Positions 3,225 to 64,000 of a stretch of DNA of 64,000 nt are shown here, one piece after another (position 1 is the stretch's first letter; every line of letters starts with the position of its first letter). The translations under genes and the position numbers were made by a program. The notes below the pieces were generated by a model. It was given only the letters and a program-made list of their open reading frames with translations. It made no database searches and was not told the origin of the DNA. The stretch is from Dehalococcoidia bacterium (GTDB lineage: Bacteria; Chloroflexota; Dehalococcoidia; Tepidiformales; Tepidiformaceae): contig JAJEIT010000065.1 of NCBI GenBank assembly GCA_022827945.1, positions 39,294-103,293 of the forward strand, given 5' to 3'.

Positions 3225-3764
3225 GTGGAGAACTTCCTGCATATCGCCGCCGTCTGGCTGCACGTCCTCGGCATCGCGCTGTTCGTGGGGCCGCAGTTCT
3301 TCCTGGCCTTCGCCTGGGTGCCCGCTTCCCGCCAGATCGAGGACCTGCAGACGCGCGTGGCGGCGATGCGCACGATCACGACGCGCTTCGGCTGGATCGG
3401 GGGCATCGGCCTCCTGCTGATCCTGATCGGCGGCACGTACCTGATCATGACCTGGCGCGACTACCACAACATCGTCGAGGGGACGGCCTTCTTCGACCTG
3501 CGCTACGGCGTGGTGTTCGTCATCAAGATGGTGCTGCTGGTGGTGATGATCGTGCTGGTGGGGCTGCACATGTTCGTGGTCGGCCCCAGCCAGGTGGACG
3601 CGATGGAGGAGCAGGCCCGCGGCGGGAACGTTCCCGACAAGGACATCCGGCGCCTGCGCATCACCTCCATGGTGCTGAGCATCACGGGGCTGATCCTGAC
3701 GCTCGTGATCATGGGGTTCGGCGTGAGCCTGGGCGCGGCGGAGTACTCGCTGCAGAACTTCTAG
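3225..3764 (+). CDS. CopD-like/DUF integral membrane protein
   Basis: A 179-residue protein with four hydrophobic segments (about 4-27, 58-78, 93-117 and 145-170). A His near the first helix ('AAVWLHVLGIALFVGPQ') and one in the third ('VGLHMFVVGP') resemble the heme- or copper-ligand pattern of CopD/DUF4149-type membrane proteins. It is probably in the cytoplasmic membrane. The start is the GTG at 3225, in the sequence ggaggcgcgctcGTG. It stands alone between the hydrolase and the ileS leader. Function is not proven; the family label is by overall pattern only. Confidence 0.6.
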   Translation: MENFLHIAAVWLHVLGIALFVGPQFFLAFAWVPASRQIEDLQTRVAAMRTITTRFGWIGGIGLLLILIGGTYLIMTWRDYHNIVEGTAFFDLRYGVVFVIKMVLLVVMIVLVGLHMFVVGPSQVDAMEEQARGGNVPDKDIRRLRITSMVLSITGLILTLVIMGFGVSLGAAEYSLQNF

Positions 3765-3783
3765 GCGGCTACCCGGCGCGTGT

Positions 3784-3812
3784 TTGACCCATTCGCGGGG
3801 CGCTGGTTCACT
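3784..3812 (+). promoter_or_regulatory. Probable promoter of the ileS leader
   Basis: TTGACC (3784-3789) and TTCACT (3807-3812) are separated by 17 bp, a canonical vegetative sigma spacing. Transcription would begin near 3819, just before the first T-box helix. The -35 box is strong (5/6); the -10 box is weak (3/6). Confidence 0.5.
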
Positions 3813-3827
3813 AGCTCCAGAGGCGTT

Positions 3828-4101
3828 GACGGAGACGAGTAGCGTCCCGTTCCTGCGCTCAGCGAGCCCCGTTCGGTGCGAGGGGGCGCTGCAGGCGGAC
3901 GTGAACATCCCTCCCGAGCTTCCGGCCGAACGCCGGCGGCGCCGGCAAGTAGACCCGGACGGAACGTGTCCGCGGGTGCGGACCGCCCCCCGTTACCGAG
4001 GGCGGGAGCGTGATGGCGCTCCGCAGAGCGCCCGCCTCGTGCGGGAAGCAGGGTGGTACCGCGGGTCTTGCGCCCGTCCCTGACCGGGACGGGTTTTCTT
4101 G
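3828..4101 (+). promoter_or_regulatory. T-box riboswitch (isoleucine) upstream of ileS
   Basis: This leader fills the 373-bp gap between the membrane protein and ileS. It contains the near-invariant T-box sequence AGGGTGGTACCGCG at 4050-4063, whose bulge pairs with the NCCA end of uncharged tRNA. About 10 nt later a strong intrinsic terminator begins. The 5' part starts GACGGAGACGAGTAG, like a stem I with its AGTA bulge, and a candidate specifier ATC (isoleucine codon) lies at 3907-3909 in 'GTGAACATC'. By family knowledge, uncharged tRNA-Ile would stabilise the antiterminator and switch ileS on. The specifier assignment is inference; the T-box itself is clear. Confidence 0.9.
4073..4100 (+). 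terminator. T-box intrinsic terminator
   Basis: CCCGTCCC (4073-4080) and GGGACGGG (4086-4093) form a perfect 8-bp stem with a 5-nt TGACC loop, followed by TTTTCTT. It lies directly after the T-box sequence and competes with the antiterminator. Confidence 0.9.
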
Positions 4102-4137
4102 TGTCCGTCCCGGCAACCCTCGCCCGGGAGGCCGGAA

Positions 4138-7415
<3,278 letters not shown>

Positions 7416-59680: not shown

Positions 59681-61426
59681 TTGCAGGCAGAAGGCGTCAA
59701 CGAGGCGATTCGCTACGAGGCGGACGAGTCCTGCCCACCCCTGATCGCGCTCAGCGTGGGTTTGCAGGGCGTGATGCTGGGGGTGGCGCCGCTGGTGCTG
59801 ATCGTCGCGATCACGGCGGCAGCGGGCGGCCAGGACGACAGCTACCTCAGGTGGGCGGTGTTCGCCGCGCTGATCATCGCGGGCGTGCTGACCGCGCTGC
59901 AGGCGACCAGGTTCTGGCGGCTGGGGGCGGGGCACATCATGATCATGGGCACCACCCCCAACTTCGTGGCGGTGTCGGTGCTGGCTCTGGAGGGGGGCGG
60001 CCCGGGCCTGCTGGCGAGCCTGATCGTGGTGGCGTCGCTTTTCTACCTGGCGCTCGCGATCTGGCTGCCGCTGCTGCGGCGCATCATCACGCCCGTCGTC
60101 TCGGGCACGGTGTTGATGGTGCTGGCAGTGACCCTCGTGCCGATCGCGCTGGACCGCGTGCAGGAAGTGCCTGAGAGCGTCCCCGGGGCCACGGGCCCGA
60201 CCGTCGCGCTGATCACGCTGGCGGTCGCGACGGTGATGGCGCTGCGGGCATCGGGCACGTGGCGGCTGTGGTCGCCGCTGATCGCCATCGCGGTGGGCAC
60301 CGTGGTTGCGGCGCTGTTCGGGGCGTACGACCCGCAGGCCGTGCTGGATGCGCCCTGGGCGGGCATCCCGGGCGGGAGCGAGTTCCCCGGGTTCGACTTC
60401 ACGCCGGGAGCGGAGTTCTGGGCGCTCCTGCCGGTGTTCGTCGTGATCATCCTCGTCGGCGGCGTCAAGAACATCGGCGACAGCGTGGCGATGCAGGGCG
60501 CTTCCCGCCGCCGACCGCGGGTGACGGACTTCCGGCTCGTCCAGGGATCGCTCAATACGAACGGGTTGGGGATCTTCTTCTCGGGTCTCGCGGGGACGCC
60601 ACCGACCTCGGTCTTCTCCTCCACCAGCGTTTCGCTGGTGACCATGACGGGCGTGGCCTCGCGGAACGTGGGCTACGTGATCGGCGGGGCGTTCCTGGTG
60701 CTGGCGCTCTTCCCGAAGCTGCCGGCGCTGGTGCTGACGATCCCGAATCCGGTGATGGGGGCATTCCTGCTGACGGCGATCGCCCTCATCTTCGTGGGCG
60801 GCGTCCGGACGGTGATCCAGGACGGGCTCGACGCAAAGAAGATGCTGATTGTGGGGGTCGCGTTCTCACTCGGCGCGGGCATGGAGCACCAGACGATCTT
60901 CGAGGACCTCATCGGCGGGACGTGGGGCCGTCAACTCGACAACGGACTGCTGATCGGGGCGCTGGCGGCGGTCGTGATGACCGTCTTCCTGGACCTGACG
61001 AGCCCCCGCACGGGGGGACGGCTGGAGTCGAAGCTGCACACCGGCTCACTGCCCGAGATCGACGCATTCGTCCGGGAGATTGCCGGCAGGCTCGGGTGGA
61101 ACGAGGGATCGACGGAGCGGTTGCGGTCGGCGGCCGAGGAAACCGTCCTGAGCCTGTTGCCCGAAGGGGACGAGGCCGAGGCAAGGGACGCGCCCCGGCT
61201 CATCGTGGTGGCGCACCCCGAAACGGGGACGGTCGAGCTGGAATTCATGGCGGTTTTCGATGAAGAGAACCTCGAGGACCGGCTCGCGTACCTGGAAGAG
61301 GAGACGGAGGGGTTGCAGGAGGGGGAAGTCCCGCTGCGGCTGCTGCGGCACTACGCCTCGTCGGTGCACCACCAGAAGTATTACGGTCTCGATATCGTGA
61401 CGGTGCAGGTGAAGGGGTCGCGGTAG
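59681..61426 (+). CDS. NCS2-family nucleobase permease with C-terminal ATPase-like domain
   Basis: A 581-residue protein. Residues 20-450 hold about 12-14 helices of the nucleobase:cation symporter-2 (xanthine/uracil permease) fold, with 'NIGDSVAMQGASRR', 'GLAGTPPTSVFSSTSVSLVTMTGVASR' and 'PVMGAFLLTAIALIFVGGV'. The C-terminal ~125 residues ('EIDAFVREIAGRLGWNEGSTERLRSAAEETVLSLL' onward) look like a histidine-kinase/RsbW-type ATPase domain, but the DxGxG-type ATP boxes are missing, so it may only bind partners. The start is TTG 59681 with a weak site. Uptake of purines or pyrimidines with a regulatory tail is the likely role. Confidence 0.85.
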   Translation: MQAEGVNEAIRYEADESCPPLIALSVGLQGVMLGVAPLVLIVAITAAAGGQDDSYLRWAVFAALIIAGVLTALQATRFWRLGAGHIMIMGTTPNFVAVSVLALEGGGPGLLASLIVVASLFYLALAIWLPLLRRIITPVVSGTVLMVLAVTLVPIALDRVQEVPESVPGATGPTVALITLAVATVMALRASGTWRLWSPLIAIAVGTVVAALFGAYDPQAVLDAPWAGIPGGSEFPGFDFTPGAEFWALLPVFVVIILVGGVKNIGDSVAMQGASRRRPRVTDFRLVQGSLNTNGLGIFFSGLAGTPPTSVFSSTSVSLVTMTGVASRNVGYVIGGAFLVLALFPKLPALVLTIPNPVMGAFLLTAIALIFVGGVRTVIQDGLDAKKMLIVGVAFSLGAGMEHQTIFEDLIGGTWGRQLDNGLLIGALAAVVMTVFLDLTSPRTGGRLESKLHTGSLPEIDAFVREIAGRLGWNEGSTERLRSAAEETVLSLLPEGDEAEARDAPRLIVVAHPETGTVELEFMAVFDEENLEDRLAYLEEETEGLQEGEVPLRLLRHYASSVHHQKYYGLDIVTVQVKGSR

Positions 61427-61525: not shown

Positions 61526-61765
61526 ATGGCTGCAACCGAAGAGCGTCTGAGGAAGCTCGTTGACGACAACCTGGAGATTGAGGGGCGGGCGCCCGGCAGC
61601 CCCCTCGACCTTGAGCGCAACATCTCCGATGCGGGCGTGTCCTCGCCCGACATCGTGGCGTTCTGGAAGCTCGTGAACGAAGAGTTTGGCGTCGACATTT
61701 CGGCTGAGCAGTTCGCCGAGCTCCTGACGCCGGCCGCGTTGATCGCGTACCTCGACGCAGCCTAG
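61526..61765 (+). CDS. Acyl carrier protein
   Basis: A 79-residue four-helix carrier protein. The pantetheine Ser lies in 'ISDAGVSSPDIVAFWKLVNEEFGVDIS', where the usual DSL triad is replaced by SSP, so the second Ser is the probable attachment site. The start is ATG 61526 with GGAG 9 nt before it; the track starts 8 residues earlier. It is a specialised ACP and not the primary fatty acid AcpP. A 4'-phosphopantetheinyl transferase follows 53 bp later and would activate it. Confidence 0.85.
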   Translation: MAATEERLRKLVDDNLEIEGRAPGSPLDLERNISDAGVSSPDIVAFWKLVNEEFGVDISAEQFAELLTPAALIAYLDAA

Positions 61766-61818: not shown

Positions 61819-62556
61819 ATGCCGGCTCCTGTTTCCGCACCCTGGTGGCGCCCGTTCAGGGAACTGGACGGGGCAAGGGTCGTGTACGTCGACCTGACCG
61901 CCGACGCGGACCGCGAGGCGGAAGCGGCGGTCTGGCTGGACGAGGAGGAGCGGGGGCGCTGGGCCGCATATCCGTACTCGGGACCGCAGCGCCAGTTCCT
62001 GCTGTGTCGCGCCGCCTTGCGCGCGACCCTCTGCGAGCAAGTCGGCTGCGCGAACGAGGCGCTCGGCTTCGAGACTTCCGAGCACGGCAAGCCCTCGGCC
62101 AGGGTGGGAGGCGCGGAAGCGCCCATCAGCTTCAACGTCAGTCACAGCGGGCGGCACGGGCTGATCGCGTTCGCGCCGGACGGACTGCTGGGCGTGGACG
62201 TGGAGGAGCTTGCCGGCCGGCGCAACCTCGACCTGCTCATGGACGGGGTGCTGGGCGAGAACGAGCGTCGCGAGATCGACTCGAAGGAGGGCGACGAGCA
62301 GCTCCGCTCCTTCTTCCGGTTGTGGACGATGAAGGAAGCGCTGCTGAAGGCGTACGGCAAGGGGCTCCTGGTCGACGCGACCACCTTCGAGATCCCGCCC
62401 GTGGTGCGCGGGGGCGCGCCACGGGGGCAGCTCGAGCTGCCGCAGCTGCCGGGCGTGACCCTGCAGGTGGAGGGCATCGGCGGCGAGGACTTCGCCGCCG
62501 CCCTTGCGCGGGAGGTGGTTCCCGAGGCGGGCGGCGAGCCAGCGGAATCGCGGTGA
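61819..62556 (+). CDS. 4'-phosphopantetheinyl transferase, Sfp type
   Basis: A 245-residue Sfp-type PPTase that loads the pantetheine arm on carrier proteins. 'DGLLGVDVEELAG' (GxDxE) and 'FFRLWTMKEALLKAYGKGL' (WxxKEA...KGxG-like) are the two magnesium/CoA motifs, and 'FNVSHSGRHGLIAF' is the P1a block (SHS). It likely serves the adjacent ACP. Both genes are near a large secreted protein gene, and no polyketide or peptide synthetase is in the window. Confidence 0.92.
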   Translation: MPAPVSAPWWRPFRELDGARVVYVDLTADADREAEAAVWLDEEERGRWAAYPYSGPQRQFLLCRAALRATLCEQVGCANEALGFETSEHGKPSARVGGAEAPISFNVSHSGRHGLIAFAPDGLLGVDVEELAGRRNLDLLMDGVLGENERREIDSKEGDEQLRSFFRLWTMKEALLKAYGKGLLVDATTFEIPPVVRGGAPRGQLELPQLPGVTLQVEGIGGEDFAAALAREVVPEAGGEPAESR

Positions 62557-62712: not shown

Positions 62713-64000
62713 CGTGACCCGTGACCCGGCGCTGACGCACGGATTCCTGGGCGCCCTCGTGCTCGCGCTGGCGCTGGTCGCCGGCGCCGGGGTGGCGGGC
62801 GCCCACCCCGGGCACGCCGCGGGGGGCACCGCCGATGTCGACGTGCGTGTCTGGCAGCACGTGGACGACCCACTGCGCATCCACATCAGCGCCCGGCCCG
62901 AGGGGACCACCTGGGACACGCTCGGGACGATCCCGCTGCTCCTGGACGACGGGCTGAGCAGCAGCCGCAACTTCCGCTTCGGCGACATCACGGTCGAGGG
63001 CGTCGAGGTGCGCGTCTGGCAACGGATCACCAGTCCGCTGAGCATCTTCATCAGCGCGCGGCCGGAGGGCGGGGACTGGGACCGCCTGGGCACGATCCCC
63101 CTCCCCCTCGATGACGGCTTCAGCCGCAGCGGCAACTACCGTTTCGGCGACATCACGGTGGCCGTACCGGTAGCCCACCCGCTGGACGCGCCGGCGGTGG
63201 TGGTCTCGCCGGGCGGCGACGAAGTCCCGCGTCTGGCGGCGCTCACGTTCGCCTTCGGCGATCCCCCCGCCGAGACCGACGGGGCAGCCTTTATCTCGTT
63301 CGAGCCGCCGGTTGAGGGGTCATTCGTCTGGCTCGACAGCCGGACGCTGCTCTTCCAGCCCGACTACCCCGGCTGGCAGCGCGGGGAGGGGTACGAGGTC
63401 GTCGTCGATGCGGGCCCCGTGGGCCTCGCGAGCGACTACACCCATGCCTTCACGGTCGAGGGGCGGCTCGAGGTCGCCTCGGTCATCCCCGGGCACGGGG
63501 ACGCGGACGTTCCCACGAACGCCCAGGTTCTCGTGCAGTTCAACCGCTCGGTGGCGCCCCTCACGGTCCTCCAGGAGGGTCCGGGGGCGGCCGTGCTGGA
63601 GTTCGACCCACCCCTGGAAGGCGCGGGCGAGTGGCTCAACACCTCGCTCTACCGGTTCATCCCGACGAACCTGGAGCCAAGCACGACCTATTCGGTGCGC
63701 ATTCCCGCGGGTCTGACCGCGGCCGTCGACGGCGCGCTGGGGGCGGACTACACGTGGAGCTTCGCAACCATCCAGCCGGCAGTGACCGGTGTCACGCCAC
63801 ACGACGGGGCGACGTTCGTCGAGCCCGACGACCCGATTTCGGTCACCTTCAACCAGCCGATGGAACGTGCGTCGGTGGAGGCAGGGGTAACGCTCCGGGC
63901 CGTGGGAGGCGCGGCGATTCCCGGCTCGTTCGAGTGGAACGAGGCCGGCACCGTGGTGACGTTCACGCCGGAGGAGCCGCTGGAACTGCTGAAGCTGTAC
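62713..64000 (+). CDS. Secreted Ig-like (Big_5/SbsA) protein, 3' end missing
   Basis: An open frame of at least 429 residues that runs off the right edge, so it is not in the ORF track. It begins at GTG 62713, after GGGAGGAGG. A signal sequence ('GALVLALALVAGAGVAGAHPG') is followed by two ~50-residue repeats with 'VRVWQ', 'ISARPEG', 'LGTIPL.LDDG' and 'RFGDITV'. At least two Ig-like domains follow, with 'GDADVPTNAQVLVQFNRSV' and 'GATFVEPDDPISVTFNQPM', the SbsA/Big_5 pattern. Large bacterial alpha-2-macroglobulins of Chloroflexi can begin this way, but that needs the missing part. Confidence 0.8.

Follow-up and report, generated by a model that had tools for sequence, protein, structure and literature searches.

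A SupE-type transporter of the sup cluster joins an NCS2 permease to a degenerate anti-sigma-like domain

In the 64,000 nt stretch of DNA analyzed here (the window), a forward-strand reading frame is open from exactly 59681 to the stop codon ending at 61426. It encodes a SupE-type transporter of 581 amino acids, in which an NCS2 permease carries a degenerate anti-sigma-like domain at its C-terminus. The TTG start codon at 59681 aligns with the ATG of close orthologues. The next gene upstream, in the same direction, encodes a cytochrome P450 (58243..59580), which also adjoins SupE in close orthologues. Downstream on the same strand follow the genes for an acyl carrier protein (ACP) of 79 amino acids (61526..61765; Pfam PP-binding, E 1.2e-8) and for an Sfp-type 4′-phosphopantetheinyl transferase (PPTase) of 245 amino acids (61819..62556; Pfam ACPS, E 6.6e-16). 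The gene order in the window is P450, transporter, ACP, PPTase and a Big_5-domain protein. Only the beginning of the latter lies in the window (62714–64000, running off the window); it is a large protein that starts with bacterial Ig (Big_5) domains. At locus L036, the orthologue is a bacterial alpha-2-macroglobulin; thus, an inhibitor-like surface protein adjoins the sup genes in this genus. A preliminary description of this DNA had missed the polyketide/fatty-acid gene cluster around the transporter.

The membrane part comprises residues 1–441 (59681..61003, plus strand) and matches the Pfam family Xan_ur_permease (PF00860) over residues 24–401 with an E-value of 4e-42 and 144.8 bits, compared to a cut-off of 27. 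A full-length AlphaFold2 model (pLDDT 80) had UapA (E 3e-16) and UraA (E 3e-15) as its top matches in the PDB. The profile match and the UraA/UapA-like 7+7 fold both place the protein in the NCS2/NAT family (SLC23), in agreement with the NCS2-fold transporter suggested previously. About 135 residues extend beyond the last membrane helix, and residues 445–581 (61013..61423, plus strand) form a tail with a SpoIIAB/RsbW-like HATPase fold lacking the ATP boxes. The two strings that the preliminary description had quoted from this region correspond to residues 480–493 and 552–577. The extra C-terminal domain is a genuine fusion, as had been proposed, and intact relatives carry it too.

The window tail alone gave no significant direct sequence match in Pfam or the PDB; we therefore used its relatives and its predicted fold. 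For a tail model built from 59 relatives (pLDDT 80), the first 21 PDB matches were all SpoIIAB/RsbW/UsfX chains or an RsbW domain (E 2e-6 to 7e-4, probability 1.0). Two basal members of the fusion family, with about 30% identity across the whole protein, match HATPase_c_2 in Pfam (L012, E 5e-11; L029, E 1.5e-11). A blind search of 294 genomes of the class with the tail profile yielded a weak match (E about 1e-5) to the HATPase domains of PP2C-HATPase proteins; in the protein examined, a STAS gene comes next. In hhalign, the broader tail alignment matched a PP2C-HATPase protein with an E-value of 2.8e-5, and the narrow tail alignment had no significant match to the single RsbW of this genome. 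The NCBIfam models gave a weak match of the window protein to the RsbA anti-sigma model (E 0.0014). On the basis of the predicted model, the tail is a degenerate SpoIIAB/RsbW-type HATPase domain. The structure prediction and the HATPase_c_2 matches of the basal relatives thus uphold the RsbW-type fold that had been guessed from the sequence. The tail matches the anti-sigma fold and not STAS, the C-terminal domain that marks SulP/SLC26 carriers.

A disordered or unrelated tail is ruled out by the predicted fold and the profile search. No relative was found in which the tail is a gene of its own; a few split frames (L087, L090, L098 and L102) appear to be copies of this fusion that were frameshifted or cut. 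At L032, the intact gene is closely preceded by a frame (3737–4606) that duplicates part of the first 100 residues of SupE.

The register of the former ATP boxes was set against the RsbW of this genome, partly by eye. At the former N-box (residues 483–494, SAAEETVLSLLP; 61127..61162, plus strand), the Glu pair is kept and the Asn is replaced by S491. At the places of the former G1 box (residues 519–530; 61235..61270, plus strand) and G2 box (residues 547–556; 61319..61348, plus strand), Asp-x-Gly and Gly-x-Gly are lost. In this register, partly set by eye, no main-family member retains the G1 or the G2 box. The N, G1 and G2 boxes that mark the ATP-binding kinases SpoIIAB and RsbW are hence missing from the main family, and two basal members retain part of them. 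The alignment bears out the earlier remark that the tail is without glycine-rich ATP boxes. It speaks against the nucleotide signalling proposed along with it: because the whole main family has lost these boxes, nucleotide sensing or signalling by the tail is unlikely.

Twelve positions of the tail are invariant in 41 sequences (E486, E487, E521, F522, N530, L538, L555, V562, H564, G569, D571 and V575). The dN/dS ratio was 0.07–0.17 for the tail and 0.12–0.18 for the permease part. Because the ratio resembles that of the permease and the tail has invariant residues of its own, the sequences indicate that it is not decaying and is under purifying selection like that of the permease.

Looking at the substrate pocket, alignment to the solved structures places K263 (60467..60469) at the substrate-binding Glu of TM8 (UapA E356, UraA E241), N294 (60560..60562) at the Asp of TM9 (UapA D388) and the Ser-rich stretch FSSTSVS (residues 312–318; 60614..60634) at the NAT signature QN-x-G, all on the plus strand. 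The TM8 position is K in 37 of the 41 sequences and the TM9 position is N in 36. We take the TM8 Glu, the TM9 Asp and QN-x-G to be established substrate-pocket residues of UapA, UraA and XanQ; the window protein lacks this set, which defines nucleobase carriers. Basal paralogues, one of them on another contig of this genome (C45), keep the Glu and the Asp and lack the QN, so the negative charges of the pocket were lost within the family. With the canonical binding residues replaced, canonical nucleobase transport, and with it the earlier label of a nucleobase permease, appears doubtful. The same changes argue for an anionic or otherwise different substrate, as far as we can infer from the pocket.

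The genes around the transporter point to the sup cluster, which in sponges occurs independently of taxonomy (PMC9426513). The ACP and PPTase genes adjoin the window gene, and the synthase stands beside its relatives. Within 6 kb of the best 76 of 455 places encoding the fusion in the genome collection, we found a type I synthase at 35 loci, an alpha/beta hydrolase at 24, a PPTase at 19 and an ACP at 15. The synthase pieces at the loci of two relatives combine to KS-AT-DH-MT-ER-KR-ACP. In the genome of the window, the synthase followed by an alpha/beta hydrolase lies on a different contig (C88); there (L147), the sup-type synthase is encoded by an open frame of 3150 amino acids, which seems to include a second KS-AT set. 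A permease of 557 amino acids, with SupE of clone pAPKS18 (ABE03914) as its best match, has been described beside swfA and STAS genes (PMC3908369). The window protein resembles SupE of pAPKS18 in standing, through its relatives, beside a mono-modular synthase of the KS-AT-DH-MT-ER-KR-ACP type in sponge symbionts. It is also similar in size, comparing its 581 amino acids by description with the 557 listed for the SupE-like permease. By gene neighbourhood and published description, the window gene is SupE, the permease of the sup cluster. This permease is known but uncharacterized, and its anti-sigma-like domain and changed pocket are newly recognized. Among the papers searched, we found no published note of such a tail or pocket in SupE and none naming Xan_ur_permease together with HATPase_c_2.

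A large number of paralogues are found away from sup clusters, next to CoA-transferase, amidohydrolase and DUF1330 genes. Consequently, the sup ACP cannot be all that the tail serves, and the role of this domain must extend beyond the sup pathway. Many of these paralogues (L069, L078, L083, L139, L153 and others) are followed by a small DUF1330 gene. At Acidimicrobiia loci, SupE pairs stand between an ABC importer and the synthase. SupE genes often form adjacent divergent pairs (L041, L042, L051, L086, L093, L097, L100 and others), whose products possibly are heterodimers. Next to the basal NCS2-HATPase relatives L137 (G057:C7) and L138 (G090:C119), genes resembling those of squalene/hopanoid synthesis were recognized by eye, and these neighbourhoods again look like a lipid pathway.

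The tail is present on all three NCS2 genes of this genome, which has no others. Its genus-mates gave three to seven matches each, apart from two genomes with none, and the fusion tail occurs in 34 of 294 genomes and 10 of 184 genera of the class. NCS2 proteins with this tail are thus present in Chloroflexota, as the preliminary description had anticipated. The nearest named relatives are Dehalococcoidia/Chloroflexi MAGs, and the best 76 of the 455 places belong to six phyla (Chloroflexota, Actinomycetota, Gemmatimonadota, Acidobacteriota, Latescibacterota and Verrucomicrobiota). These 76 places stem almost entirely from sponge-symbiont MAG sets. For sets other than the jk18x series and the RHO/COS/IRC/APA bins, the hosts, including a probable coral set (‘Plut’), are those we presume. 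The jk18x series consists of Ircinia sponge MAGs (PMC9531527), and the names of the RHO/COS/IRC/APA bins match sponge hosts (PMC8163846). In the phylogenetic tree, supported branches place members of one phylum inside another. Lateral transfer would be expected to give this pattern; a caveat is that MAG bins can contain contaminating sequences.

No STAS gene was found near the window gene. Among the loci examined, only L087 and L105 have a STAS gene and a gene of 90 codons immediately upstream of SupE. The 90-aa product (L087, 4526–4795; L105, 3953–4222) is helical, has no Pfam match and is encoded between the STAS gene and SupE. In the sponge fosmid PS11G3, genes for a 115-aa STAS protein and a 92-aa protein lie beside a SupE-like permease (PMC3908369), a pair that the arrangement in L087 and L105 matches. 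The only STAS gene found in the genome of the window is located on contig C45, beside no SupE. It belongs to a complete-looking set of STAS, response-regulator and RsbW genes (L135, 7007–8962).

Compared with known systems, the window protein shares the membrane fold, PF00860 and its best full-length fold matches with the NCS2/NAT carriers UraA, UapA and XanQ, from which it differs by the replaced TM8 Glu, TM9 Asp and QN-x-G and by the extra C-terminal domain. Its tail resembles SpoIIAB, RsbW and UsfX (HATPase_c_2) in fold, in the order of strands and helices and in the Glu pair of the N-box; unlike these, it is fused to a carrier, has lost the ATP boxes and has invariant residues of its own. 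SulP carriers combine a related 7+7 fold with a STAS tail (PMC6497670), and the STAS domain of DauA has been co-crystallized with acyl carrier protein (PMC5703999). The window protein thus resembles SulP/SLC26 carriers such as DauA in its related 7+7 membrane fold and in a cytoplasmic C-terminal domain drawn from the STAS/anti-sigma partners. In contrast, SulP has the fold of the antagonist (STAS) and the window protein that of its anti-sigma partner. By analogy, SupE would be the mirror image of the SulP-STAS carriers, encoded beside an ACP gene.

We place high confidence in the transporter fold, the homology, the fusion, the lost motifs, the gene neighbourhood and the distribution. That SupE of the sup cluster carries an anion and uses its dead anti-sigma fold for docking or dimerization seems to us about an even proposition, and substrate class, direction, partner and gating are put forward more tentatively. 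In this model, the rebuilt NCS2 pocket would move an anion. Its cargo would probably be a carboxylate that enters or exits the pathway of branched fatty-acid synthesis. The tail, without ATP binding, would be kept as a cytoplasmic protein-protein module that dimerizes the carrier and/or docks a partner gating transport. Candidate partners are the ACP encoded next door or a STAS protein where one is encoded alongside. SupE would then act like the SulP carriers with their STAS tail, using the other half of the STAS/anti-sigma pair. The most specific version, in which the inactivated anti-sigma fold docks the synthase ACP (or a STAS switch) and so couples carboxylate transport to sponge-specific branched fatty-acid synthesis, we consider rather unlikely as a whole.

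The direction of transport leads to one alternative, that SupE exports the end product of the cluster, a branched fatty acid or some derivative of it, with the tail recruiting the transporter to the synthase or to the carrier protein of the synthase. Export would agree with the ACP, PPTase and hydrolase genes nearby and with the reversed charge of the pocket, which would suit an acid. Set against this, the NCS2 carriers characterized so far import their substrates as symporters, the neighbourhoods of paralogues look catabolic and the Acidimicrobiia SupE pairs stand beside an ABC importer. Since NCS2 carriers are symporters and the Acidimicrobiia pairs lie between the importer and the synthase, uptake is slightly likelier than efflux, and we judge the exporter improbable. 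At the other extreme, the protein might be an ordinary nucleobase (xanthine or urate) symporter, its tail incidental and merely stabilizing and the proximity of the synthase functionally unrelated. The best NCBIfam model is indeed the xanthine permease PbuX (E 4e-57, far below its cut-off), and the genome has no NCS2 genes besides the three fusions; yet the Glu, Asp and QN of the pocket are replaced, the tail is under selection and the neighbourhood recurs across phyla, which makes this reading very unlikely.

Partner-switching concerns the tail itself, which might bind an unphosphorylated STAS protein and so gate the carrier, or titrate STAS and let transport steer a sigma factor. This would fit the anti-sigma fold, the STAS and 90-aa genes by SupE in L087 and L105 and the similar pair in fosmid PS11G3. 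We nevertheless judge it improbable: the STAS gene occurs at just these two, mutually related loci, the single STAS and RsbW genes of this genome lie together on another contig beside no SupE, and a domain without ATP cannot phosphorylate a STAS partner.

Few biosynthetic systems in sponge microbiomes are as widespread as the sup cluster, whose permease has so far figured as a bare annotation. The rebuilt pocket and the dead anti-sigma domain provide a handle on what enters or leaves the sup pathway and on its control. As a counterpart to the SulP-STAS carriers, SupE bears on the question why such carriers recruit either half of the STAS/anti-sigma pair. If true, docking of an ACP or STAS protein would couple transport to branched fatty-acid synthesis across unrelated symbiont phyla.
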